A stretch of DNA of 64,000 bases from a virus: the IMG/VR virus record IMGVR_UViG_3300041409_000066, positions 62,001 to 126,000 of that record; one strand, given 5' to 3'. The position numbers and the translations under genes are program-made. Position 1 is the stretch's first letter. Each line of letters begins with the position of its first letter. The notes below the pieces were generated by a model. It made no database searches. It was not told the DNA's origin and saw nothing but the letters and a program-made list of their open reading frames with translations. Of this stretch, positions 11,807 through 38,645 are shown one piece after another.

Positions 11807-11944
11807 CTACTTCTCCTCGTCGGCCTGCTGGTTCTCCTGCTTCAACGCCTGCTCATCTTCGGCAGACCAGTCCTTCGCCGCCGTCTTGGAGTTGTCGTCC
11901 TTCTCCGGCAGCACCTCGCCCGTTCCGAACTTGGTGATCCCCAC
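11807..11944 (-). CDS. Small acidic protein, 45 aa
   Basis: GTG at 11944 overlaps the primase stop (TAGTG) and its TAG abuts the next GTG, so it exactly fills the gap between two genes. The product begins VGITKFGTGE and ends in an acidic, Gln-rich helix (ENQQADEEK). Placement and couplings make it a credible gene despite its size. Function unknown. Confidence 0.65.
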   Translation of the reverse strand: MGITKFGTGEVLPEKDDNSKTAAKDWSAEDEQALKQENQQADEEK

Positions 11945-13035
11945 TACACGCTCACCTCCTCAAACACACGTAGTTGTCGCGGTCGGTTCCAGACCGAGTA
12001 CGGTACGGCGTTCTCGATGAGTTCGGCAGCCTTCTCGGTGGACAGGTTGGCGGGATCCCCGGCGTACGGAGACTCCACGACCTCGACCGGCACGAAGGGC
12101 GCCAGCCGGTCACCCAGCCCGTCTGCGACCTTCTTGGTCCTGCCGGACACGCTCGTCTCCCACGTGCCCTCTGTGGCGTTCCAGCCCGCGTCGTCGTTGT
12201 CCATCCACAGGACGATGCGCTCGTACTTGCAGAGCAACTTCACCTGCCGGTCGGTGACCGAGGCGCCGAAGGTGCCGACGAAGTTCGGGATCACGAGGTG
12301 GTGCTTGAGCACACTCATGCTGGACTCGACCACCACGCCGACCCGCTGCTTCGGGTCGTAGTTGAACAGCGTCGTGTCCTTCGGGAAGTCCGGGCTCGAC
12401 AGGTACTTGGGAGTGCCGTCGTCGGCCAGGCGCCGTGACTGCCAGCCGACCAACTTGCCCTGCCAGAAGTGCGGCACGATGATCCGCTCGGAGATCTTGG
12501 TGTCGCTGACCGGGTAGTCGGGCGCGTAGCCGACCCGGAACTTGACCAGCACCTCCTCGGGGATGCCACGCCCCTCGGGCTCGGGGTCGAACAGCCAGGG
12601 GTGCAGCAGCATCCACGGGGCCAGGATCCGCTCGTCGTACGACGGGATCGGCGGACGGCGGTCGCCCCGCTTCTCGTACAGCGCGTCGAAGTAGTTGAGC
12701 AGGTCGTGCAGGTCCATGACGTTGCCGTCGAGCCCTGTCGCCTTGCCCAGCCAGCCACGGGCCTCCTTGTGGTCGCAGTGGCGGACCGTCTGGATGAACC
12801 AGAGCAGGCCACCACCAGCGCCGCAGCCGAGGCACTTGTAGGTCAACTTCGACCAGTTGAGCGAGGCGGTCGGGTTGCGGTCCTGATCGGAGTGACTGGC
12901 CCACGGCACGAGGCAGCCGTGGATCAACTCGTCGTCGCGCTCGCGCACCCTGGTCACCCCGAACTCCGACAGCAGGGAGCGACAGAGCGCCTCCTTCTGG
13001 GAGTCCGGGAGTGAGCCCGCCTCGAAGCCAGCCAC
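11944..13035 (-). CDS. dnaG: DnaG-like primase (zinc finger plus TOPRIM)
   Basis: 363 aa, shorter than bacterial DnaG (about 600). An N-terminal CHC2-like zinc finger is visible: C41, H48, C68, C71 (YKCLGCGAGG). A TOPRIM domain follows, with VVVESSMSVL (catalytic Glu) and LWMDNDDAG (D-x-D). There is no room for the helicase-binding C-terminal domain of DnaG. GTG at 13035 in a TAGTG overlap; the longer frame to 13218 is not used. It makes RNA primers on the lagging strand, with the DnaB-like helicase and loader encoded upstream in the same operon. Confidence 0.88.
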   Translation of the reverse strand: MAGFEAGSLPDSQKEALCRSLLSEFGVTRVRERDDELIHGCLVPWASHSDQDRNPTASLNWSKLTYKCLGCGAGGGLLWFIQTVRHCDHKEARGWLGKATGLDGNVMDLHDLLNYFDALYEKRGDRRPPIPSYDERILAPWMLLHPWLFDPEPEGRGIPEEVLVKFRVGYAPDYPVSDTKISERIIVPHFWQGKLVGWQSRRLADDGTPKYLSSPDFPKDTTLFNYDPKQRVGVVVESSMSVLKHHLVIPNFVGTFGASVTDRQVKLLCKYERIVLWMDNDDAGWNATEGTWETSVSGRTKKVADGLGDRLAPFVPVEVVESPYAGDPANLSTEKAAELIENAVPYSVWNRPRQLRVFEEVSV

Positions 13036-13535
13036 TACGAGAACTCGTCGTACTTCTCGCGGTTGTACGACTGCCACGGCTCGAACAAGCCGCCAGGGTA
13101 GAAGCCCCACTCCTGCTTCTTCGCACCGGCCCAGACCAGCGTGATCGTGCCCGGCTTGAGGGTCGTAATCATGTGGGCGACGTTGCGCGAGGTGCGGTGG
13201 ATCGACCCCCGCTTCCACGTGCGGGCGCTGATCTCCTCACGACCCAGCAGGTGCTTGCCGATCTTGCAGTCACACGTCGGCCAGACCTGCTCGGTGTAGC
13301 CGCCGCGCACGATGAGCGACTTGAACGAGAACGGGTGATCGTGCGGGTCACGGTCCTCGTCCGGCATGTAGATGAAGTGCAGGTAGAGCGCGAACCAGGG
13401 CGTCTGCAAGATGCGCAGCCGACGCAGGTAGACCCGCTTGATGTCGCGGGCGTCCGGGATGTCGGCCCACTTCATGAAGTTCCAGCGCGTGCCGCCGATG
13501 TACGGGTACTTCACCGGCACGTAGGGGGCGGTCAC
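13035..13535 (-). CDS. Cupin-like protein, 166 aa
   Basis: GTG at 13535 in a GTGA overlap with the RNR stop. A cupin-type beta-barrel signature is visible: DPHDHPFSFKSLI with two metal-ligand His, then G-x5-H (RGSIHRTS) and HMITTLKPGTITLV. A Cys pair (CDC) occurs in the loop. Cupins range from dioxygenases to isomerases and sugar epimerases, so no reaction can be assigned. Its position directly after the ribonucleotide reductase suggests a link to nucleotide or DNA-modification chemistry, but this is speculative. Confidence 0.75.
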   Translation of the reverse strand: MTAPYVPVKYPYIGGTRWNFMKWADIPDARDIKRVYLRRLRILQTPWFALYLHFIYMPDEDRDPHDHPFSFKSLIVRGGYTEQVWPTCDCKIGKHLLGREEISARTWKRGSIHRTSRNVAHMITTLKPGTITLVWAGAKKQEWGFYPGGLFEPWQSYNREKYDEFS

Positions 13536-16153
13536 TCGCAGCCCTCCCACTCACCGCAGCCACCAAGGCGCATGTCGCAGTGGGCGCAGCCCGACTCCAC
13601 GATGACCGAGGCCAGGTTGCATCGGGGGCACGTCCGCTCGGGGTCAGCGCCCGGCAGGGTGGCTCCCTGGGTGATGGTGACCGTCTCGGTCAGGGTGACC
13701 GTCTCCGGGGCCGTGGCGCCCTGGTAGCGCCGCTTGAGCAACTTCGCGATGCCGTCCGCGACGGAGCGGACGCGGTGCGGGCCGAAGCCGGTGACGGTCT
13801 GCCCACCGATGCCGTCCAACTGCTCGATGACCTCGGCCACGTCCACCCCGGCGCGCAGAGCCAGCGAGATGGACCGACCCAGCGCCTCCACGTCGGCGTT
13901 CTTGTCGTTGCCCGCCTTGCCCAACTGGATGCGCAGGTCGAACGGGCGACCGGGGTGCTCGTCCAACTCGGTGACGGTGACCTGCACCTTGCCGAACGGC
14001 GTGTTGACCGGGAAGACCTTGGCCGTCAGGCCGGTGTCGCTGGCGTACTGCGGGATGGACATGGGCCGGATGACCGGCCAGACCTCCTCGGTGATCTGCA
14101 CCGGGGCGTCGTCCTCGATCTCCTTCTTGCCGGTGGAGAGCACCTCGTACTCGCGGCTGCCCTGCCGGTAGATCGTGATGCCCTTGCAGCCCAGGTCGTA
14201 GGCGAGCCGGTAGGCCGCGCTCACGTCCTCGACGGTCGCCTCGTTCGGCATGTTGATCGTCTTGGAGATGCTGTTGTCCACGAACCGCTGCAAGACGGCC
14301 TGGGTGCGGACGTGCTCCTCCCAGGTCACGTCCCCGGCGACCACGAAGACGCGCTGGATCTCCTCGGGCACCTCGTGGATGCCCTGGCACGAGCCCTTGT
14401 TGTCCTGCACCAGCGCGACGATGGCCTCGATCTGCTCGTCGTTCTTGCCCGCTCGCCGGAGCGCCTCTGCGAACAGCGGCGAGGCGTAGGGCAGGACGAC
14501 GTTGCCCCCGGCCTCGACCACCTGCCGGAAGTAGACCAGGGCGAACAGCGGCTCGCAGCCGGAGCCCTCCAAGGCCGCGACGTTGCTGATGGTGCCGGTC
14601 GGCGCGAAGGTGAACTGGCACGAGTTGCGGATGCCGTGGGCCATGATGCCGTCCTGCACGACCTGCCAGTTGACCGCCGGGCGTCCCCAGTCCTGGGGGC
14701 CATCGACCAGCGGGACCGGAGCGGTCCACCGCTCGTGGACGAGCCCGTCCAGACCGATCAGCGGCTCGTTGTCGTGGAAGTCGTAGATGGAGCCCTTGAA
14801 CCACTCGAAGGTGCCCCGCTGCTCGGCCCGGTCGATGCTGGCGAGCATGGTGTGGAAGCGAGCGAACTCGGTGACCTTGCTGGCGAACAGCAGCCCCTCC
14901 TCGCTGCCGTAGCGGATGCCCAACTTGAGCATCGCGTCAGCGAGCCCCATGCCGCCGAGGCCGATGCGACGGCCACCCTGGGCAGCGATCTCCAACTCGG
15001 GGACGGCAGGGACGTACTGGTTGGCGTCCACCACGTCATCGAGGAACTGGGTGGAGAGCGTCACCACGTCAGCGAAGCGGTCCCAGTCGAAGCCGCCGTC
15101 CCAGTCCGCGAAGTTGGCGAGGTTGATCGAGCCGAGGCAGCAGTTCTCGTACGGGCCGAGCCACTGCTCGCCGCACGGGTTGGTCGCCTTGAGCACGTAC
15201 TGCTGCGGGCACGGGTTGGTGCGGTTGGCGGCGTCGATGAACAGGTTGCCGGGGTCACCGATCACCCAGGCGTTCTGCGCGATCTTGTCCCACAGGTCGC
15301 GAGCCCGGATGGTGCGGGTGACGCGGTAGTCCACCGGGTCGTCGGTGGGGCCGGTCGGATACCAGCGCAGGTCGAAGTCGGCGTCCTTGGACACGGCGTC
15401 CATGAACTCGTCGGTGAGGGCGATGGAGATGTTGAAGTTGGCGATCTCGCCCTCGATGGTCTTGCTCTCGATGAACGCCTCGATGTCGGGGTGCCAGACC
15501 GGCAGCACGCCCATGTTGGCGCCTCGGCGGGAGCCGCCCTGGGCGATGACCCCGAAGGCGGCGTCGTACGCCTTGAGGAAGCCGATGGGGCCGCTGGCCT
15601 GGCCCATCGAGCGGTTGACGATGCTCTTGGACGGGCGCAGGTCACCGAAGGAGAAGCCGTTGCCGCCGCCCGTCTGCTGGATGAGCGCGGCGACCTTCAT
15701 CGTCTCGAAGATCGAGCCACGGCCCGTCGCCAGGTCGTCGTCAATCGGCAGCACGAAGCAGGCAGCCAACTGGCCGAGCGGAGTGCCCGCGCCGGTCCAC
15801 GTCGGGCTGTTCGGCAGGAAGTCCCAGGACGCGATGAGGTCGTAGTAGCGGTCAGCCTGCTTGGTCGCCGCCGACACGTCGAGCACGTCGTGGAACTCGA
15901 TGTCCGAGCCGCCCTTGCGCGACAGGTAGAAGTGCTGACGCATCGCGGTCTTCCACGGGAACTCCTCGCTGGTGCTGATGGCCGTCCCGGTCCGCTCGTC
16001 GCCGTACAGCGCGTTGACCGAGGCGACGTTCCACGCCACCCGCGACACGACCTGCTCGGGAGCCTCGGAGGGCTTGCCGTCCGAGTCCTTGCGCGGGTAG
16101 CGCATGTCGAAGATCTTGCGGCTGTTGTCGGTGAAGACGGGGGTCTGCTTCAT
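13532..16153 (-). CDS. nrdJ: Adenosylcobalamin-dependent (class II) ribonucleotide reductase
   Basis: 873 aa. Family signatures: [12 protein letters not shown], then [32 protein letters not shown] with the active-site Cys, and [14 protein letters not shown]. The C terminus carries a zinc-ribbon-like CPRC ... CAHCD followed by GCGEWEGCE, whose Cys residues would regenerate the active site. It reduces ribonucleotides to deoxyribonucleotides with B12 cofactor and oxygen-independently. No small subunit gene is adjacent, consistent with class II. ATG in an ATGA overlap with dnaB. It works with ThyX and the MazG-like protein encoded near 22 kb. Confidence 0.95.
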
Positions 16154-17457
16154 GAGGCGAGGTCCAGTTCAGAGAGGGTGGTGATCTGACCGTCAGCGAT
16201 GTCCCAGTAGATGAGCCACGCCTTCGTTTCTTCACGGCGAGCCGCAAGGATCTGCAACTGCGCCTGGTTCTGGTGTCGCTGCTCGGAGGACTGGTAGAGC
16301 CCGAGCACCCAGTCAGCGGTGCGCTCGACCTCGGAGCCCTCGGCCATGTGGTACATCTCCAAGCGCCCGGCCTTCTCGGCAGCCTTGACGCCCTCGCGGT
16401 TGATCTGGTGGGCCAGCAGGCACGACATGTGCTGGCGACCCGTGGAGATCATCGTCTTGAGGTCGTGGCTCATCTGGCGCATCTGCTCGGGACGGCTGGC
16501 CCGCTCGTCGGCGGGCTCCACGAAGGTCAACTGGTCGATGAGCAGCGACTCGGCACCGAGCATCTGGGCCTGCCGCACCAGGGCGGGCATCGTGCGACGG
16601 CCCGGCTCGGGCTTGAGCACGTGCAACTTGCCCTTCATCTGCGGGATGCGCTCGTTGATGAACTCCTTGACCCGGAAGACCTCGGACTCGGTGCAGAGGC
16701 CGCGCTGGTAGCGACGGGCGTTGACCTGCACGGCCAGGCAGGCGATGCGGTCCATCGTCATCTCGACGCTGTTCTCCAAGGTGAACAACACGGCCTCACG
16801 GTCGCGGTCCCACTCACGCAGGGCGCACAGGTCGAGCAGGTAGGACTTGCCGGTCTTCGGGCCAGCAGCGACGACACACAACTCGCCGGGGTGGACGCCG
16901 TACATGTGCTGGTCCACCGGCTCGAAGCCGATGCCGAAGGTCAGCCCCTGGGTGACGTGGCCGGTGGCTGCACGGATCTCGTAGCGCGAGAGCGACTCCA
17001 CGATGCCCTGGGCGCCCGTCGTACGGGACGCCGTGCTCTGCATGTCCAGCGAGAGCGAGAACAGCGTGTCGGCGGTCTTGGCGAGCGTCTCGACCCGGCT
17101 GGCGGGGTCGGCCTTCGCCATGTCGGCAGCGGCTTCGCGCTGGAAGGTGTTGTAGCGCAGGTGGATGTAGGTGCTCTTGAGCGAGTCGATGGCGTACTCG
17201 ATGGAGTCCGTCTCGGTGCCGTCACCGAGGCTGACCTCGGCGTCCTCGATCACGTCCTTCCACATGTCCATGATCGCGTCCTGGCTCGGAGCCAGCAGCC
17301 GACCCGACTTGAAGAAGTAATCGACGCACCAGGCCACGACCGGGCGCATCTCCTCGGTCGGGATGCACCGCTCGTCCAGCCCCTCGCGAGCGAGCACCTC
17401 AAGGGCGTCTACGTCCGAGAGGTTGGCGTAGAGCACGTCCTCTGCGTGGTTGCTCAT
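16150..17457 (-). CDS. dnaB: DnaB-like replicative helicase
   Basis: 435 aa. A helical N-terminal domain (residues 1-150) precedes a RecA-fold ATPase: Walker A GPKTGKS at 199-205, FTLENSVEM, Walker B SLLIDQLTF, then LLAHQINREG and the C-terminal ADWVLGLY. This is the DnaB/gp41-type layout. It unwinds DNA ahead of the polymerase and binds primase. Start ATG overlaps the loader stop; its own stop overlaps the nrdJ start (ATGA). Confidence 0.9.
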   Translation of the reverse strand: MSNHAEDVLYANLSDVDALEVLAREGLDERCIPTEEMRPVVAWCVDYFFKSGRLLAPSQDAIMDMWKDVIEDAEVSLGDGTETDSIEYAIDSLKSTYIHLRYNTFQREAAADMAKADPASRVETLAKTADTLFSLSLDMQSTASRTTGAQGIVESLSRYEIRAATGHVTQGLTFGIGFEPVDQHMYGVHPGELCVVAAGPKTGKSYLLDLCALREWDRDREAVLFTLENSVEMTMDRIACLAVQVNARRYQRGLCTESEVFRVKEFINERIPQMKGKLHVLKPEPGRRTMPALVRQAQMLGAESLLIDQLTFVEPADERASRPEQMRQMSHDLKTMISTGRQHMSCLLAHQINREGVKAAEKAGRLEMYHMAEGSEVERTADWVLGLYQSSEQRHQNQAQLQILAARREETKAWLIYWDIADGQITTLSELDLAS

Positions 17458-18281
17458 CCGATCACCAGCGGGCGCGTGAGGCCGTCACGGACCTCCTGCG
17501 CCTGCTCGGTGCGGGCGGTGGGGCGGTAGTCCAGCCCGGTGACCTCGTGGTCGTAGCAGACGCCGGACAGCAGCGACATGACGTTGGAGGAGTAGCCGCT
17601 GCGCAGGTCGTCCAGCGAGAGGTTGGTGGTGATGATCGTCGGACGGGCGTCGTCGTGACGGGCACGGATCACGGTGTCGAACATCGACTCGGCCACTTCG
17701 AGCCGACCCTTGTGCTCGCGGCCCACGTCGTCCACCACGAGCACTCCGGCGTTGCGCACCCGGCGGTTGAACCAGCGGCGCTCCTCCTCGTTGCGCCAGC
17801 CACCAGTGAAGGCGTCGAGCATCTCGTTGAACTGGACGAAGTAGCCGTCGTAGCCGGACGCCAGCAGGTTCTTGAGCAGCAGGCTGGCGAGCAGCGTCTT
17901 GCCGGTGCCCATCGCCTTGCCGTGCAGGATCAGACCCTGGCCGATCTGGACCAGCGCGTCGGCCTCGGCGCCGTACTCGATGACCGCCTTCTTGGCCGGG
18001 GCGGCGACGGACAGCGTGTCGTCCCACGACAGCCGCTGGTAGCGCAGACCGATGCCGCTGTTGAGGAAGAAGCGGTGCAGAGCCCACTGGGCTCGGCAGT
18101 TGCACTCCCAGTCGGCGGGCTGGCCGTCGCTGTCCCTCCACCGGAAGGAGCCGACGCCCTTGCAGGTCGGGCAGTGCTTGGGGCTGATCGGGAGGTCGGG
18201 GTAGATGGCCCGCAGCCGGGCTACCTCGTCATCCCGCAACGACCGGATGGTGAGGGGGTTGTCCTGTACGAGCAACGGCAT
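17454..18281 (-). CDS. DnaC-like helicase loader ATPase
   Basis: 275 aa. N-terminal zinc finger CPTC (37-40) and CNC (60-62), then an AAA+ ATPase: Walker A GKAMGTGKT at 121-129, Walker B VLVVDDVG near 180-187, sensor-1 IITTN. Zinc finger plus AAA+ is typical of DnaC/DnaI-like phage loaders. It overlaps dnaB, its likely partner, by four bases. First gene of the replication operon that runs down to recA. Confidence 0.88.
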   Translation of the reverse strand: MPLLVQDNPLTIRSLRDDEVARLRAIYPDLPISPKHCPTCKGVGSFRWRDSDGQPADWECNCRAQWALHRFFLNSGIGLRYQRLSWDDTLSVAAPAKKAVIEYGAEADALVQIGQGLILHGKAMGTGKTLLASLLLKNLLASGYDGYFVQFNEMLDAFTGGWRNEEERRWFNRRVRNAGVLVVDDVGREHKGRLEVAESMFDTVIRARHDDARPTIITTNLSLDDLRSGYSSNVMSLLSGVCYDHEVTGLDYRPTARTEQAQEVRDGLTRPLVIG

Positions 18282-18341: not shown

Positions 18342-18746
18342 CTAGGACAGGCGCTGGCTGATCGGGACCGCGAAGTAGGCGTCGGACGCCTTGCAGAAGC
18401 GGTTCACCGAGATGGGCGCGTTGTGCCACATGCCGTCCGAGAACTCGAAGGCGAAGCGGGCGATGGCCGGAGCCTGCGAGCCCCAGCGGCTGATGAACGC
18501 CTTGAAGATCGACGCCTCGGTCTTGTAGTTGCGGGGAAACGCGCCGTGACGCTTCTCGATGCTGCTGACCACGTAGTCGCGCAACTCCTCCCAGCCCCAC
18601 TCCGACTCCCCCTTGAGCACGTGCGTGCTCTTGGCGCTCGGCGCCAGCGTGGTGGTGAGCGTCTCGGTGACGGTCGGCACGACCTCCTTGGTGACGACCA
18701 CACGGGTCGAGCCGGACAGGTCGGTGTCGAAGTCGATCAGGGTCAT
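18342..18746 (-). CDS. Hypothetical protein, 134 aa
   Basis: Soluble, no Cys cluster or membrane segment. The N terminus is Thr/Val-rich (VTKEVVPTVTETLTTTL); the C-terminal part contains helices (ELRDYVVSSIEKRHG) and FAFEFSDGMW. ATG at 18746 in an ATGA overlap with the Sm-like gene. A 60-base gap separates it from the helicase loader. Function not recognised. Confidence 0.75.
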   Translation of the reverse strand: MTLIDFDTDLSGSTRVVVTKEVVPTVTETLTTTLAPSAKSTHVLKGESEWGWEELRDYVVSSIEKRHGAFPRNYKTEASIFKAFISRWGSQAPAIARFAFEFSDGMWHNAPISVNRFCKASDAYFAVPISQRLS

Positions 18747-19141
18747 GACGCTTGCTCCTCGGATGGCGTGCTGGTGGCGGGACTGATGGATGCGGCAACG
18801 GCGGCATCGGGGTCGTCAGACCCCTTGCCGCCGAGGTACGTGCGCTCGCAGAAAGACCAGAAGCCCCGACCCACGTTCTCGATGGCGACCCGCACTGCGG
18901 GCACCTCGTCTTCGAGAGTGGAGTCGGGGCTCAACGTGATGATGTCGGCGCTGCTCTTGTGGACGAGCAGGGTGTTGATAGAAGGATCTGACCCGATGCC
19001 TTCCCACGTGGTGGTGGCGACGAGCCAGTGGTAGTCGTCCTGGCCGCAGACGTAGCCGACGATCTCGTGGTCGGGCGCCAGGAACTTGAACGTGACCTTC
19101 CTGCCGTGGACCGCTGCGTAAGCGATCTGCTTGGACGACAT
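18743..19141 (-). CDS. Possible Sm/Hfq-like fold protein, 132 aa
   Basis: ATG at 19141 is chosen; a GTG at 19177 would add 12 residues but has no better ribosome site. Residues 11-70 look like an Sm barrel: VHGRKVTFKF (Sm1 beta strands with G13), HEIVGYVCGQDDYHWLVA, then LLVHKSSADIITL, which resembles the Hfq Sm2 signature (F/Y-K-H-A-I). The C-terminal 35 residues are Ser/Thr/Ala-rich and disordered. If real, it could bind RNA or be a structural barrel. This is pattern inference and needs structure prediction. Confidence 0.75.
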   Translation of the reverse strand: MSSKQIAYAAVHGRKVTFKFLAPDHEIVGYVCGQDDYHWLVATTTWEGIGSDPSINTLLVHKSSADIITLSPDSTLEDEVPAVRVAIENVGRGFWSFCERTYLGGKGSDDPDAAVAASISPATSTPSEEQAS

Positions 19142-19220
19142 GGCGCTGCCCGCTCGGGCTTGCGCTGCTCGTCCCACGGATTGGTCCTGTTCTGCTCAAG
19201 ACCTCGAACGCCAGGAGGGC

Positions 19221-19261
19221 GCCCCACCCGCCCTCATGCCAGGAGCGAGGACGGGTGGGGC
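19221..19261 (-). terminator. Strong terminator-like hairpin
   Basis: GCCCCACCCG pairs with CGGGTGGGGC (10 bp). After one mismatch, CCTC/GAGG extends the stem by 4 bp. It lies in the non-coding gap upstream of the Sm-like gene, downstream of the Rpf-like gene. No T tract, as is common for high-GC actinobacterial terminators. Confidence 0.6.
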
Positions 19262-19264
19262 AAC

Positions 19265-19482
19265 GTCGCGGGTTAGGGCGGCGCACCTCGCTGGCGGACG
19301 AGGTAGATCGGAGGTTTAGATCACCGCACCATGTGGTGCGGATCACTTGGGACGCTGACCGTAGACCTCTTGTTAGGGGTCGCGCAACTATCCGTTAGGA
19401 CGGTTGCAGGGTCATGTCGCGCAAGATAGGTCGGCGTGTGTGGACAACCTGTGGACTACCAATCTTCTTTGGTAACAGCCCT
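19265..19482. other. Candidate replication origin / regulatory gap
   Basis: Core of the longest gene-free gap (19142-19482). It holds a perfect 8-bp inverted repeat (CCGCACCA / TGGTGCGG, 19324-19341), a direct repeat GTCGCGCAA (19379-19387 and 19416-19424), and two minus-strand 9-mers TTGTCCACA (19439-19447) and TAGTCCACA (19450-19458) two bases apart. TTGTCCACA is the actinobacterial DnaA-box consensus. A dyad motif copy overlaps the second box. The position next to the loader, dnaB and exonuclease genes fits an origin, but this is inference. Confidence 0.4.
19454..19478. promoter_or_regulatory. Dyad-like operator/promoter element, copy h
   Basis: Plus strand GACTACCAATC, then TTCTTTGGTAACAG. 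It contains the perfect 5-6-5 dyad ACCAA-TCTTCT-TTGGT. It resembles the copies at 24885 and 30873. Confidence 0.5.
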
Positions 19483-20076
19483 CTACCTGTACGCATCGGC
19501 TCGTGTCAAGCCGACACGCGGCCCACAGTTGGGCCATGCGTGTACGCCCTCCGTCCGCAACGTCTCCTTCGCAACGACGATCTGCTGCCAAGGTGTTGCG
19601 TCGTAGGCGTGGTAAGCGAACCGCCCGCCGCCGTGCGCGAGCCATGTCGAGTGGACGAAGTTCGGTCCACCCTCGAAGTCGTATCCCCGGTCCTTGTAGT
19701 GACCGGGCTTGCCGTAGTCCCAGTGCCCCGATGCCTCGCAGTTGACCAAGGCGATCCAGACGGGGGCGATGCCACCCGTGGAGGGGGTGGCGGCACGTGT
19801 CTGGACCGCTGGACGAACGTGATGCTTCGGGTAGAGCGGGGCCGACCGTACACCAGCCCGTGAGGGCTTCGTCACAGGGGGTGCAACGACACGCCGACGA
19901 CTCGCCCGAAGCAGCGCAAGTTCACGGTCTGGGCTCTCGACAGCAGAGAGCCCGCTGGCCGTGATGGTCGCAGCGGGCTCTGTGCGGGTCGGAGCGGGGT
20001 TGGAATGGCTCATGGCGTACGCGGAGCCGGTCAGAGCGATGACGGCGGCTCCTGCGGCCAGCAGGCGGTGCTTCAC
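19483..20076 (-). CDS. Rpf-like secreted muralytic protein
   Basis: 197 aa with GTG at 20076. The N terminus VKHRLLAAGAAVIALTGSAYA is a signal peptide. A Pro/Thr/Arg-rich linker follows, then a C-terminal resuscitation-promoting-factor/lysozyme-like domain: IALVNCEASGHWDY with the catalytic Glu, FEGGPNFVHSTWLAHGGG and WQQIVVAKETL ... HAWPNCG. Rpf-type enzymes cleave actinobacterial peptidoglycan glycan chains. A second wall enzyme, distinct from the CHAP endolysin, could help lysis or reactivate dormant hosts. The ribosome site lies in a hairpin (20080-20099). Confidence 0.85.
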   Translation of the reverse strand: MKHRLLAAGAAVIALTGSAYAMSHSNPAPTRTEPAATITASGLSAVESPDRELALLRASRRRVVAPPVTKPSRAGVRSAPLYPKHHVRPAVQTRAATPSTGGIAPVWIALVNCEASGHWDYGKPGHYKDRGYDFEGGPNFVHSTWLAHGGGRFAYHAYDATPWQQIVVAKETLRTEGVHAWPNCGPRVGLTRADAYR

Positions 20077-20079
20077 AGG

Positions 20080-20099
20080 TGACTCCCAACTGGGAGTCA
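20080..20099 (-). promoter_or_regulatory. Hairpin covering the Rpf-like gene ribosome site
   Basis: Perfect 8-bp stem TGACTCCC / GGGAGTCA with loop AGTT on the minus strand, ending three bases before the GTG start. Its first three bases are the stop codon of the upstream gene and its second arm contains the GGGAG ribosome site. Ribosomes finishing the upstream gene would melt it, which suggests translational coupling. Confidence 0.55.
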
Positions 20100-20345
20100 G
20101 GCGGTGACTCCCTCGGGGGCGGGGATGGGCTGTGCGTCCGGCTCGGGCGCCCCGCCTCGCGGGTGCCGCCGACGCAGCGGACGCATTGTTGCACCCTCGG
20201 GCACCACGATGCAGTCGCGACACAGGTCTTCGTCGTACTCACCGCTTACGACCGGGCCGTCCACACGGGTGATCCGCGTGGTCACGTCGGCCTTGTCTAC
20301 GACCTTGCCGCACTTGTCACATCGGTAGCCACGGAACGTGCTCAT
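20097..20345 (-). CDS. Zinc-ribbon protein, 82 aa
   Basis: ATG at 20345 overlaps the exonuclease stop. It carries CDKCG near residue 10 and CRDC near 43, a C-x2-C ... C-x2-C zinc ribbon, with GPVVSGEYDEDL in between. The C-terminal tail is Arg- then Pro-rich. It could be a nucleic-acid-binding accessory protein to the exonuclease. Its stop codon is the first arm of the hairpin before the Rpf-like gene. Confidence 0.8.
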   Translation of the reverse strand: MSTFRGYRCDKCGKVVDKADVTTRITRVDGPVVSGEYDEDLCRDCIVVPEGATMRPLRRRHPRGGAPEPDAQPIPAPEGVTA

Positions 20346-21226
20346 GGTTGTCCCCACAGGGTCTGCTCGGAAAGCCGGTCCTTGACCGACCTCAACTGAT
20401 ACCGACCGAGGAAGTCGAGCAGCGGTGCGTAGAGCACGCTGCTCGGGTCGGTGGGTTGGAACGGCGGGAGCGGCGTCAGTTCAAGGCGCTGCTCCGTGTC
20501 TCGAAGGTTGACCAGGCGCAGCGCCATCCCTACCTGCGCCCGGTGCTCGTACACCCGCTCGTCGTTCACGATGCGGTCCCACTGGCACTTGTTGTCCAGC
20601 ACGATCTTGGCTGCCCGCTTGGGGCCGATGCCGGGGATACCCGGCACCCCGTCTCCGGCGTCACCCATCAACGCCATGACCATCGCCTCGTTCGCCGGTT
20701 GGTAGCCGCGCTCGGCCACGAACCGCTCGTGTGTCCAGCGGTCGGTGTCAGCACCACCACTGGATACCCGGACGATCTCGACCTGCCCCTGCACGAGCAG
20801 TTGGAGGAAGTCCTTGTCGTTCGACAAGATCACCAACTTGTCGTCCAGCGGGCGATGGTTGCGCCAGTACCAGGCGATCAGGTCGTCAGCCTCGACGCCG
20901 GGCCGCTCGATCTGCCGGATGTTCGACAGCGCGAGGAACTCCTTGGTCAGCGCGAAGGCGCCGTCCTCGAAGTCGGAGGTGGCCTGCACCCGGTGCGCCT
21001 TGTAGCCGTCGTGCAGGGCCACCCGGAACGTCGAGCGTCCGCCGTCCCAGCAGACGACCACCTTGTCCGGCTGCTCCTCCTTGATGTGCCGAGACAGGCA
21101 GTTGATGAACACGAGGAGCGGCCCGGTCGCAACACCGTCCGCAGACAGCGCCGGTTGGCCGGGCCGCTCCATCGCTCGGACAGCGCGCATCAGGAGGTTG
21201 TTGCCGTCCACGATGAGCGCCGTCAT
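20342..21226 (-). CDS. 5'-3' exonuclease (FEN-1/PolI exonuclease family)
   Basis: 294 aa. Motifs: LIVDGNNLLMRA (first metal Asp), VVVCWDGGRSTFR, EADDLIAWY, ILSNDKDFLQLL, and the helix-3-turn-helix MGDAGDGVPGIPGIGPKRAA. These are the metal ligands and DNA-binding HhH of flap endonucleases. ATG at 21226 follows the Lsr2-like stop. It would remove RNA primers during lagging-strand maturation, since DnaE-type polymerases lack this activity. Confidence 0.92.
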   Translation of the reverse strand: MTALIVDGNNLLMRAVRAMERPGQPALSADGVATGPLLVFINCLSRHIKEEQPDKVVVCWDGGRSTFRVALHDGYKAHRVQATSDFEDGAFALTKEFLALSNIRQIERPGVEADDLIAWYWRNHRPLDDKLVILSNDKDFLQLLVQGQVEIVRVSSGGADTDRWTHERFVAERGYQPANEAMVMALMGDAGDGVPGIPGIGPKRAAKIVLDNKCQWDRIVNDERVYEHRAQVGMALRLVNLRDTEQRLELTPLPPFQPTDPSSVLYAPLLDFLGRYQLRSVKDRLSEQTLWGQP

Positions 21227-21228
21227 GA

Positions 21229-21618
21229 CTACTTGGTCTTCTTCTCGGCCCGGCGAGCCGGGCGCTTCCTGGCGGGCTTGGCGTTCGCCCGCTGCGAGGC
21301 GGCGTACTGCTCGCGCACCTCGTTGGGGATCCGACCAGTCGTCGTCAGGACGATGCCCTGCTCCGCAGCCCAAGCCCGGATCCGCTGCGTCTCCTCGGTA
21401 CGCGCCTTCCTTTCGGCGCCGTTGCCGCCACTGCGCTGCCCTCGGACCCGGCTGACGCTGATGTACGGCGCGAGAGCCTCGTGGAACTCCTTGGCCTCGA
21501 CCTCGGCCACGTCGATCTCGTAGCGCATCCCGTTGACGGCGTACTGGATCGTCTGGGTTGCCTCCTCACCAGAGATGTCCGACGTGAACCGCTCGGTGAC
21601 GATCTTCTCCTTCGCCAT
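21229..21618 (-). CDS. lsr2: Lsr2-like nucleoid protein
   Basis: 129 aa. The N-terminal dimerisation part has the Lsr2 pattern (ATQTIQYAVNGMRYEIDVAE, then EFHEALAPYI). The C-terminal DNA-binding part has IRAWAAEQGIVL, then GRIPNEVREQYAAS. Actinobacterial Lsr2 silences AT-rich foreign DNA; phage copies may counter host Lsr2 or organise phage DNA. The minor-groove RGR motif of host Lsr2 is TGR here. A Lys/Arg-rich tail (PARKRPARRAEKK) extends the protein. ATG after a gap that carries a terminator hairpin. Confidence 0.85.
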   Translation of the reverse strand: MAKEKIVTERFTSDISGEEATQTIQYAVNGMRYEIDVAEVEAKEFHEALAPYISVSRVRGQRSGGNGAERKARTEETQRIRAWAAEQGIVLTTTGRIPNEVREQYAASQRANAKPARKRPARRAEKKTK

Positions 21619-23228: not shown

Positions 23229-23526
23229 GTGCGTTTCTCCGCTCCTTGATGTGGGTTCCTACCACGAGGGCTTCGGCGTACAAGGTGGTCATCTTCATGA
23301 GAAGTTCGTGCTGTTCGATGATCTTCGCTTGGGTGTCCACACCTAGGACACGCATGGCTCGCTGCATCCCCATGTAGATGACCGAGCCCATGTCGATCCC
23401 GGCCTCGGACATCACCTGCTCGAAGGCGCCCTCTGGGTCAGCAGCGGCCTTGTGGTCGAAGTCGAGGACGATCTCGCTCATGGCCCAGAAGTCGGGGTGC
23501 TCGGGGCGCAGCGGGAAGTCAGGCAT
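23218..23526 (-). CDS. Hypothetical protein, 102 aa
   Basis: Acidic N terminus (PDFPLRPEHPDFWAMSEIV) and helical C-terminal half (IIEQHELLMKMTTLYAEALV). ATG at 23526 overlaps the MerR-like stop by eight bases. Methionine-rich segment VIYMGMQRAM. Not recognised. Confidence 0.75.
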   Translation of the reverse strand: MPDFPLRPEHPDFWAMSEIVLDFDHKAAADPEGAFEQVMSEAGIDMGSVIYMGMQRAMRVLGVDTQAKIIEQHELLMKMTTLYAEALVVGTHIKERRNARDV

Positions 23527-23998
23527 CTTCGCCCAGCCCGAAGTCGATGCCGTTGATGATCGCGCAGTGCTTGACCATGACGACGGCGTGGACCAGAGCC
23601 TGTCCGTCGATGGCGCCGGTCTGGGCGAGTGCGTGCGCCATGCGCTCCACGTCAGCCAGCGTGTAGTAGCGGAAGCCTGCCTGGGTGCGGCTCGGTTCGA
23701 GCACCTTGCCGTCGAGGACGAAGTAGCCCTTGGGGTGCGTCGTCTTGTTCGGGCGGGCTCGCCAGCGCAGCCAGTCCGGCCCCTTGCCGAAGAAGACCTT
23801 GGCGACCTCCTGCACGGTGAACGATGGCTCGGGGAGCACCTCCTCCTCGGCGCCGAACTTGTTGATCTTGGTCGTGACCGGGAACATCTCCGGCTCGGTC
23901 CAGAAGCGACGACCCTCGGGCAACGCGATGTCGGCCTGGGCCAACACGAGCACTTGGGGCTCGGTCAGAACCGGCGCCTCCATGACGGGCTCGGTCAC
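23519..23998 (-). CDS. MerR/excisionase-like DNA-binding protein
   Basis: 159 aa; GTG at 23998 with a strong ribosome site (AAGGAG). The C-terminal half shows a winged-helix of the MerR type: SFTVQEVAKVFFGKGPDWLRW, a wing with GYFVLDGKVLEP, then FRYYTLADVERMAHAL, like the R-x-Y-x-x-x-D-V-x-x-I of MerR proteins. It is a candidate repressor or activator for the dyad operators in this genome. It is isolated from the upstream gene by a strong hairpin. Confidence 0.75.
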   Translation of the reverse strand: MTEPVMEAPVLTEPQVLVLAQADIALPEGRRFWTEPEMFPVTTKINKFGAEEEVLPEPSFTVQEVAKVFFGKGPDWLRWRARPNKTTHPKGYFVLDGKVLEPSRTQAGFRYYTLADVERMAHALAQTGAIDGQALVHAVVMVKHCAIINGIDFGLGEDA

Positions 23999-24027
23999 GT
24001 GCGACTCCTTGGTAGGGGTGGGGAAGA

Positions 24028-24064
24028 CCGAGCCGCCCCGGCGTGGAGAACCGGGGCGGCTCGG
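24028..24064 (-). terminator. Strong terminator hairpin upstream of MerR-like gene
   Basis: Perfect 14-bp stem (CCGAGCCGCCCCGG / CCGGGGCGGCTCGG) with a 9-base loop, immediately after the stop of the 256-aa gene. The most stable hairpin in the window. Confidence 0.7.
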
Positions 24065-24068
24065 CGGA

Positions 24069-24839
24069 CTAGGACTGCTTGCGGACGAACAGGGCGGTGG
24101 AGACGCCCGTGCGCTGGCTGATCTTGCGCAGGAGGGCGAGGCGCTCCGGGTTCTTCTTGATCGACTCCATCGCCTTGGCCGGGTCGTAGACACGGACCTC
24201 GCGGGTGAAGGCCAGGTAGTCCTCGCGGGTGATGTCCCCGGCCTCGTAGAGGGCCAGCAGGCGCTCACCCTGGTCGTCGTTGACGCCGCCTGTGCGGTAC
24301 TCGCGGGACCACGCCTGGTCGGTGCCGGGGACGTTGAGGCGCTCTGGCTTCTTCGGGGCACACAGCACGTAGTGGCCGTTCTGGTCGCGCTCGGTGGCCT
24401 GCACGATGACCTGGCCGGTCGCCGGGTCCACCTGGGACTTCGGCACGGCTACGCCGCGCTCCTCGGCGTCCACGTCCATGTGGTGGCGGACGATGGTCTT
24501 GATGTCCTCCTCGCGACCGTCGAGCAGGTCACCGATGGTCTTGAGCACCTCGCGCTCCTTGAACAGCGTGGTGATCTCCTCCGGCTTGAGGGTGCGGCGC
24601 GTGCCGGGCTGGACCTTGCCGAAGACCTCGGGCAGCACCTTGAGCGCCTCGGTCTGGGCCTCGGTGATCGTGCGGACCGGCGCCACCGCCGGGAAGGGGA
24701 TGTCGAAGACGTAGTTGCTGATGGGCAACTCGTCGGTGACCGCAAGGACGAGATCCTTCATCGTCGCGTCGGCCTTGCGGAGCGCGATCTTCCCGCGCTC
24801 GATGTACGGCTGGACCTCGGTGCTCGTGCTCTCGCTCAT
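24069..24839 (-). CDS. Hypothetical protein, 256 aa
   Basis: ATG at 24839 (MSESTSTEV). Soluble, mainly helical, with repeated short charged helices (LFKEREVLKTIGDLLDGRE; IVRHHMDVDAEERG). A strand-rich part (GHYVLCAPKKPERL) follows and the C terminus (LALLRKISQRTGVS) looks like a helix-turn-helix but is weak. The gene stands alone: a strong terminator follows it and a divergent dyad element (24885-24930) lies 46 bases upstream, so it is probably highly regulated. Not recognised. Confidence 0.8.
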   Translation of the reverse strand: MSESTSTEVQPYIERGKIALRKADATMKDLVLAVTDELPISNYVFDIPFPAVAPVRTITEAQTEALKVLPEVFGKVQPGTRRTLKPEEITTLFKEREVLKTIGDLLDGREEDIKTIVRHHMDVDAEERGVAVPKSQVDPATGQVIVQATERDQNGHYVLCAPKKPERLNVPGTDQAWSREYRTGGVNDDQGERLLALYEAGDITREDYLAFTREVRVYDPAKAMESIKKNPERLALLRKISQRTGVSTALFVRKQS

Positions 24840-24884: not shown

Positions 24885-24909
24885 CACTACAAGCATCCTC
24901 GGTAATAGG
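24885..24909. promoter_or_regulatory. Dyad-like operator element, copy a
   Basis: Plus strand CACTACAAGCATCC, then TCGGTAATAGG. It forms, with copy b, a 15-bp inverted repeat (arms 24885-24899 and 24916-24930) with one mismatch and a 16-base spacer. Upstream of the 256-aa gene. Confidence 0.6.
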
Positions 24910-27235: not shown

Positions 27236-27271
27236 CCCGGCTCTCACCCCTTCACAGGAGATCGAGCCGGG
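27236..27271 (-). terminator. Hairpin around the late element before the endolysin
   Basis: Eight-bp stem (CCCGGCTC / GAGCCGGG) enclosing a 20-base loop that contains the conserved block. It could terminate the SPFH transcript or structure the leader of the endolysin mRNA. Confidence 0.4.
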
Positions 27272-38157: not shown

Positions 38158-38175
38158 CGTGGTCCTCTCTCGTCC

Positions 38176-38212
38176 CTCACCCCTTCACAGGGCTCAAGAG
38201 GGGTTGGACAGG
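38176..38212 (-). promoter_or_regulatory. Bipartite late element, copy 2 (YadA-like fibre)
   Basis: Minus strand: CCTGTCCAACC, 10-base spacer, CCTGTGAAGGGGTGAG, then 18 bases to the ATG at 38157. It begins one base after the upstream stop codon. Confidence 0.65.
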
Positions 38213-38213
38213 C

Positions 38214-38645
38214 TCACGGGGCGAGCGTGAAGATCGCCAGGTTGTTGCCGAGGAGGTCCAGCACGATGATCGTGTTCTCGGCAGCCAACTTGTTCACCGT
38301 GGCGCTGACGCTGGCGGGGCCGGTGGCCGGATCTTGCTCCACAGACCCAACCGGGGTGCCCCCTACTGCGTTCTGGCCCAACTTGACTTGGAAGCGCAGC
38401 CGGTTGTAGCCGGGGTTGCCGACCGAGTTGCCGACGTTCTCGCCTGTGATGGTGACCAGCACGGGGCCGCTGTCTCCTGCGGCTGGGGCGTTCACCACAG
38501 TGAAGTCATCGAGCGAGAAGCCCTCGCTGACCCCGTACGCCTTGTAGTCACTGGTCGTGCCGGTGTTCTGCCAGGTCCACGCCCCCAGGGAGCGGGGCGG
38601 TGGAGATGGCGAAGCCACCGGACCGAGTGTGCAGACGGCGCCCAT
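38214..38645 (-). CDS. Hypothetical tail-associated protein, 143 aa
   Basis: ATG at 38645 in a TGATG overlap. Beta-rich sequence with SLDDFTVVNAPAAGDSGPVLVTITG and RLRFQVKLGQNAVGG; the end reads IIVLDLLGNNLAIFTLAP. The N terminus (VCTLGPVASPSPPP) is Pro-rich. It sits between fibre genes, so it is probably a tail-tip or fibre accessory (adhesin-like) protein. No motif recognised. Confidence 0.75.
   Translation of the reverse strand: MGAVCTLGPVASPSPPPRSLGAWTWQNTGTTSDYKAYGVSEGFSLDDFTVVNAPAAGDSGPVLVTITGENVGNSVGNPGYNRLRFQVKLGQNAVGGTPVGSVEQDPATGPASVSATVNKLAAENTIIVLDLLGNNLAIFTLAP

Follow-up and report, generated by a model that had tools for sequence, protein, structure and literature searches.

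The replication operon and its upstream gap

The window analyzed here is 64,000 nucleotides long (bases 62001-126000 of a 153,911-bp virus record, the phage being labeled G000), and the minus strand carries nearly all genes of the record. A leftward replication operon on that strand comprises genes for a 144-residue protein with a predicted Hfq/Sm fold (18743-19177, with an alternative ATG at 19141), a conserved 134-residue protein modeled as helical (18342-18746), a DnaC-like helicase loader (17454-18281; phrog_50, E 1e-37), a DnaB-like replicative helicase (16150-17457), the large subunit of ribonucleotide reductase (13532-16153), and DNA primase (11944-13218). Upstream of the first gene lies a gap of 305 bp (19178-19482), bounded on the right by a minus-strand gene with an Rpf-type transglycosylase domain match (19483-20223), beyond which is a flap or 5'-3' exonuclease gene on the same strand (20342-21373). 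The initial annotation had described this gene-free gap as a candidate replication origin beside helicase loader, dnaB, and flap exonuclease genes. Pfam and PHROGs searches bear out all three neighbors, as well as the primase, and the gap itself is real, but the earlier start at 19265 excludes a terminator-like hairpin at 19221-19261. The gap is also probably the longest in the window, as had been claimed: of the stretches longer than 305 bp that a simple gene caller leaves empty, the four inspected (13219-13531, 38158-38644, 53-429, and 23527-24068) each hold plausible open reading frames.

The first operon gene encodes a predicted Hfq/Sm-fold protein. Its AlphaFold model (pLDDT 87.5) has the N-terminal helix and five strands (H-EEEEE) of that fold, and the top PDB matches found by Foldseek are mostly Hfq, with target TM scores up to about 0.78 and no E-value below 0.001. 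Neither the G000 protein (no match) nor the corresponding proteins of two relatives (L173, E 0.14; L187, E 0.064) reached the cut-off of the Pfam family Phage_Hfq (PF23874). To our knowledge, actinobacterial hosts mostly lack a recognized Hfq. The 134-residue protein was considered as an initiator; its helical model has no PDB match.

A search with the operator DNA pattern described below identified four related phages whose DnaBs are 45-47% identical to that of G000, and profile searches with DnaB and the 134-residue protein enlarged the set to about 35 contigs, near-duplicates left out. Single-protein searches of viral contigs with DnaB and ribonucleotide reductase returned no or distant relatives, a DnaB profile search of genome contigs returned none, and no near-identical DNA was found in the phage collection. 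Nearly all relatives share the order flap exonuclease, gap, Hfq-like gene (in most), 134-residue protein gene, DnaC, DnaB, and primase. In the relatives examined the operon lacks ribonucleotide reductase, with no matching protein at that place, and the transglycosylase was not found in 22 relatives; among those tested, only G000 has it inserted between the flap exonuclease and the control region, and the insertion may have brought gap DNA along. In one subgroup (L213, L218, L222-L226, and L231) no Hfq-like gene was detected at this place; these contigs share a very conserved stretch of 123-130 bp that contains a TTGCTC-18-TAGCGT resembling a promoter and hairpins bearing CCGCCAG, of which a second copy is situated close to the ribosome-binding site.

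Cultured large actinophages show a similar operon with a different upstream region. Phabba (Myrnavirus), Finchvirus, and Puppervirus share the order small gene(s), DnaC, DnaB, primase, and SSB/polymerase; the first gene of both Phabba and Finch, in the same position, is Pfam Phage_Hfq (E 1e-43 and E 3e-14, respectively); a profile of the Hfq-like proteins of the G000 group matches Phabba gp171 (E 2e-6 in a set of five proteins); and a profile of the 134-residue protein matches Pupper gp145 and Finch gp69. The DnaBs of these three are about 28% identical to that of G000. In contrast to G000, the first small gene is separated from its upstream neighbor by just 31-64 bp in these phages, no leader was seen, and the 15 kb examined of each contained no exact DnaA box. 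An actinobacterial host for G000, as initially suggested, is indeed likely: its DnaB relatives belong to Gordonia, Rhodococcus, and Mycobacterium phages, and the Rpf-type transglycosylase domain is encoded next door.

Promoter motif and leader hairpins

A promoter-like pair on the minus strand, -35 TTGCGC (19382-19387) and -10 TACGGT (19358-19363) at a spacing of 18 bp, is the predicted promoter of the replication operon, a consensus match with a weak -10. The -35 hexamer falls within one copy (19379-19387) of the 9-bp direct repeat GTCGCGCAA, which is present as the initial annotation stated, the other, upstream copy (19416-19424) reading TTGCGCGAC on the minus strand; the short GTTAGG repeats it listed are also there, at 19272, 19372, and 19394, three of the seven copies in 154 kb. 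The pattern TTGCG[CG]-N17-19-TA[CT]N[GT]T occurs six times in 154 kb, always on the minus (coding) strand and four times at operators. Of 26 short gaps, 7 contain a looser pattern, TTGNSN-17/18-TANNNT, oriented with the genes, compared to 0.3 in shuffles (maximum 2), and none contains it in reverse; several other related gaps have CTTGATACGATC in common. A sigma-70 and terminator scanner with an E. coli-like promoter consensus and terminators that require T-runs found nothing in the region. The promoter and hairpin patterns were written after viewing some of the gaps, so that the shuffle comparisons are not fully blind, and the relatives counted are non-independent samples.

Downstream of the promoter, three minus-strand hairpins can be drawn in a leader of roughly 130-170 nt. 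Hairpin A (19324-19341) is the 18-bp palindrome of the initial annotation, with 8-bp arms and a 2-nt center; in relative L173 a different hairpin takes its place. Hairpin B (19284-19305) has the stem TACCTCG/CGAGGTG and the loop TCCGCCAG. The strong GC hairpin at 19221-19261 occupies the place of the relatives' intrinsic terminator, but the G000 copy has no T-run. Many relatives have a promoter, then a hairpin with a CGCCAG loop, then a GC hairpin and T-run just ahead of the first gene; the hairpin and T-run end about 20-40 nt before that gene in L175, L176, L177, L178, and L182.

Several comparisons suggest that the leader is a conserved RNA: i) hairpin B recurs in 11 of 26 short gaps (0.5 expected) and, when each clade as grouped by eye contributes one contig, in 5 of 16 (0.32 expected); ii) its loop is constant (CGYCAR) while its stems vary by paired substitutions (TACCTCG/CGAGGTG, CCTCG/CGAGG, CTCG/CGAG, TCTCG/CGAGA, CCCTT/AAGGG, and GCCTC/GAGGC); iii) the leader of G000 folds better than all of its shuffles (z -5.2), as do those of six of the seven relatives compared; and iv) when a covariance model is built with G000 left out, its top-scoring position in G000 is 19222-19317 on the minus strand, third overall with E 0.42 over 570 kb, a weak match (14 bits) that persuades mainly through its position in the gap on the right strand, and the model also recovers the syntenic location in L168, which was held out too (E 0.0003). 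Hairpin B is missing or altered in L168, L179, L187, L215, L216, L220, and L232. In L173 the upstream gene already has a terminator behind it, and a second hairpin comes after the leader; the latter is therefore more than a hairpin closing the upstream operon. These motifs, their order, and their recurrence in relatives are features of the DNA itself.

Tandem DnaA boxes and the operator

Further upstream are the two DnaA-box-like 9-mers of the initial annotation, on the minus strand and 2 bp apart (TAGTCCACA-GG-TTGTCCACA): the exact box TTGTCCACA at 19439-19447, one of two in the 154-kb record, and box 2, TAGTCCACA, at 19450-19458 with one mismatch. Defining a pair as an exact box and a box with at most one mismatch on one strand, starts 9-20 bp apart, an order-2 Markov background predicts 0.0008 pairs per genome and 1.7e-6 within the gap, and none of 60 simulated genomes had one; the tandem boxes are far beyond chance. 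In syntenic gaps the exact box is found only in G000 and L179 (2 compared to 0.087 expected, P=0.0035); in L179 it has a weaker TTTTCCACC ahead of it on the same strand, and 5 bp after it we read a promoter-like TTGTTC-18-TAGGGT. No tandem pattern was found at up to two mismatches in the first four relatives, and a search of all viral contigs provided no clear comparator, the nearby proteins sampled among the matches listed not being replication genes. An inverted pair of DnaA boxes, equally spaced in G001 and G007, was rejected, since it lies within a conserved coding gene resembling a baseplate protein. Boxes in this gap are thus probably meaningful where present, yet not part of its general content; they would be a lineage-specific addition in G000 that may control a switch or mark a replication origin.

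An operator copy does overlap the second box, as had been noted: the palindrome TACCAATCTTCTTTGGTA at 19457-19474 shares 2 bp with box 2. It is one of 19 sites in 154 kb that match an 18-bp palindromic motif (consensus CTACAAGGATSCTTGGAG) with a clear score gap to background; its leave-one-out score is 18.6 compared to a genome background maximum of 11.4, and all 19 sites outscore the whole background when left out of the model. In at least four operators, though not in that of the gap, the palindrome coincides exactly with the spacer between -35 and -10 (TTGCGC-palindrome-TACCGT), an arrangement typical of MerR regulators. Several operators form the spacer of such TTGCGC/TACCGT promoters and are followed by GTCAGAGYCAYC, and related operators precede the same genes in relatives; other sites within the window are at 24887, 24911, 30238, 30877, 33826, 36573, and 50725.

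The regulator is probably the MerR-like DUF7229 protein (PF23875) encoded on the minus strand at 23519-24109 (the start is uncertain; we used the translation of 23522-24109), a candidate put forward on three grounds: i) the protein is kept in 20 of 22 relatives; ii) its gene adjoins one with a double operator upstream (24887 and 24911); and iii) the PDB matches of its profile are confined to two members of the MerR superfamily, GlnR and TnrA, and are weak (E 0.4-0.9). G000 resembles MerR-type regulation of the GlnR/TnrA superfamily in the spacer palindromes of several operators, but differs in that the gap operator lies upstream of the promoter. The earlier suggestion that repression could gate replication is reasonable but indirect, since several operators elsewhere lie within a promoter and this one is upstream of it.

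Candidate functions of the gap

We consider it probable that the gap is the promoter and attenuator-like leader of the replication operon, preceded by lineage-specific DnaA boxes and a MerR-type operator. From upstream to downstream the order would be operator, two tandem DnaA boxes, the promoter TTGCGC-18-TACGGT, and the leader RNA, with hairpin A, hairpin B and its CGCCAG loop, and the strong GC hairpin, ahead of an operon in which the Hfq-like gene, the 134-residue gene, DnaC, DnaB, ribonucleotide reductase, and primase are read leftward. RNA polymerase would begin at the promoter and could be halted by the leader before the first gene, and expression of the operon would depend on polymerase being let past by hairpin B or by a factor bound to it; the operator, bound by a phage regulator that is probably the DUF7229 protein, and the DnaA boxes would set how often the promoter fires, possibly in step with host DnaA. 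We infer promoter activity, attenuation, and binding by DnaA and by a repressor. One point against a leader of this kind is that the GC hairpin of G000 lacks a T-run, so that it is at most a putative terminator. The DnaA boxes and the gap operator play no necessary part in it, and a lytic origin may share the leader/promoter site; the degrees of confidence given here overlap, since a single site can serve as origin, DnaA-regulated promoter, and leader at once.

Leaders that act by attenuation or RNA-mediated antitermination are familiar from phage put and nut sites and from attenuators. The likeness claimed for G000 and its relatives is one of arrangement (promoter, conserved hairpin, terminator-like hairpin, then operon); an Rfam search gave no match at the gathering threshold. 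The order promoter, leader, terminator is complete in the sequences of several relatives, while G000 has the promoter and leader and a last hairpin without a T-run. A broader proposal, which we put forward tentatively, is that the conserved leader (CGCCAG-loop hairpin and terminator) is an undescribed attenuation or antitermination switch by which a large group of actinophages gates its replication genes. The Hfq-like product of the first gene may be what reads this switch, to which some lineages would have added host DnaA and a phage MerR-like regulator. A leader RNA that recurs ahead of a replication operon with an Hfq-like first gene is a compact, testable element, and the DnaA boxes of G000 might couple phage replication to host DnaA.

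DnaA could also act here purely as a transcription factor, the boxes tuning the replication promoter at a place that is no origin. This would be compatible with the leader as a detail of its control, and we regard it as a reasonable possibility, if short of an even chance: the boxes precede the -10 of G000 by about 75-95 bp, the exact box of L179 is 5 bp upstream of its own promoter-like pair, and the overlapping operator is itself regulatory, but most relatives lack the boxes.

Less probable, in our estimate, is the function originally proposed, a lytic origin that uses host DnaA. DnaA on the tandem boxes would open nearby DNA and the phage DnaC-like loader would place DnaB there; the overlapping operator would let the phage repressor block initiation. 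Part of the case stands, since the boxes are not a chance occurrence, an actinobacterial host is likely, loader and helicase genes adjoin as they do at oriC-type DnaA-dependent origins, the gap of L179 has an exact box behind a weaker one at P=0.0035 over all gaps, and local GC falls to about 0.50-0.54 in a genome of 66% GC. Against it, L179 is the one relative with the same replication module in which we found an exact box, the other related gaps examined having none; two boxes are few for an origin that depends on DnaA only; TRF detected no iteron array within the gap or around it, direct repeats being limited to an 11-bp pair and a 9-bp pair, and no initiator family was found among the neighboring proteins, features expected of an iteron-type origin; and there is no clear unwinding element, the minimum being about 0.50 GC in 60 bp, with nine 100-bp places in the record equally or more AT-rich than the gap, whose best (19371) ranks tenth. 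The cumulative GC skew of the record is uninformative: it has no turning point and is monotonic with gene strand, because nearly all genes are on one strand. We found no description of DnaA-box origins in actinophages in the literature searched, whose coverage excludes subscription journals. The promoter and structured leader account for the palindrome, and for one of the two repeat copies, with no need for an origin. The origin reading of the gap is not established.

The leader might instead be an independent small RNA gene that has a promoter and a terminator to itself, the operon being transcribed by read-through from upstream. The hairpin and T-run that end shortly before the first gene in five relatives would suit such a gene, but the upstream terminator of L173 would block read-through and there is no space for a second promoter after the leader; we consider this improbable. 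More improbable still is an RNA-based origin at which a promoter-driven folded RNA primes replication, as proposed for the non-RepA extrachromosomal prophages of mycobacteriophages: promoter, structured RNA, and terminator do recur beside replication genes in relatives, and RNA-dependent prophage origins exist in actinophages (PMC7157519), but in relatives this RNA immediately precedes the replication genes and is collinear with them, like a leader, and the phage encodes its own primase. Both protein-dependent and RNA-dependent prophage origins have been described, while mycobacteriophage replication is not well characterized for lytic growth (PMC7157519). The cluster A mycobacteriophage origins resemble the G000 region in having a non-coding RNA region, which prophage replication needs, but they are linked to parABS (PMC7157519), whereas the G000 region precedes replication genes.

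Three other features of the record were observed. A small protein encoded at 430-771 on the minus strand of the window resembles sigma-70 region 4 (Pfam E 6e-5, below the curated cut-off) and is kept in one relative at 56% identity; it is a possible phage sigma factor. Tandem repeats of 51 bp occupy record bases 152770-153007 (G000:C1), near the right end of the record and outside the window. Finally, the 16-bp sequence CTCACCCCTTCACAGG (CCTGTGAAGGGGTGAG on the coding strand) is repeated about 15 times, at 27243, 38176, 41082, and 50831 in the window and at about 13 more sites in the record; at the sites inspected, mostly in the structural region, it lies just upstream of gene starts, as a start-associated or late-promoter-like repeat would.
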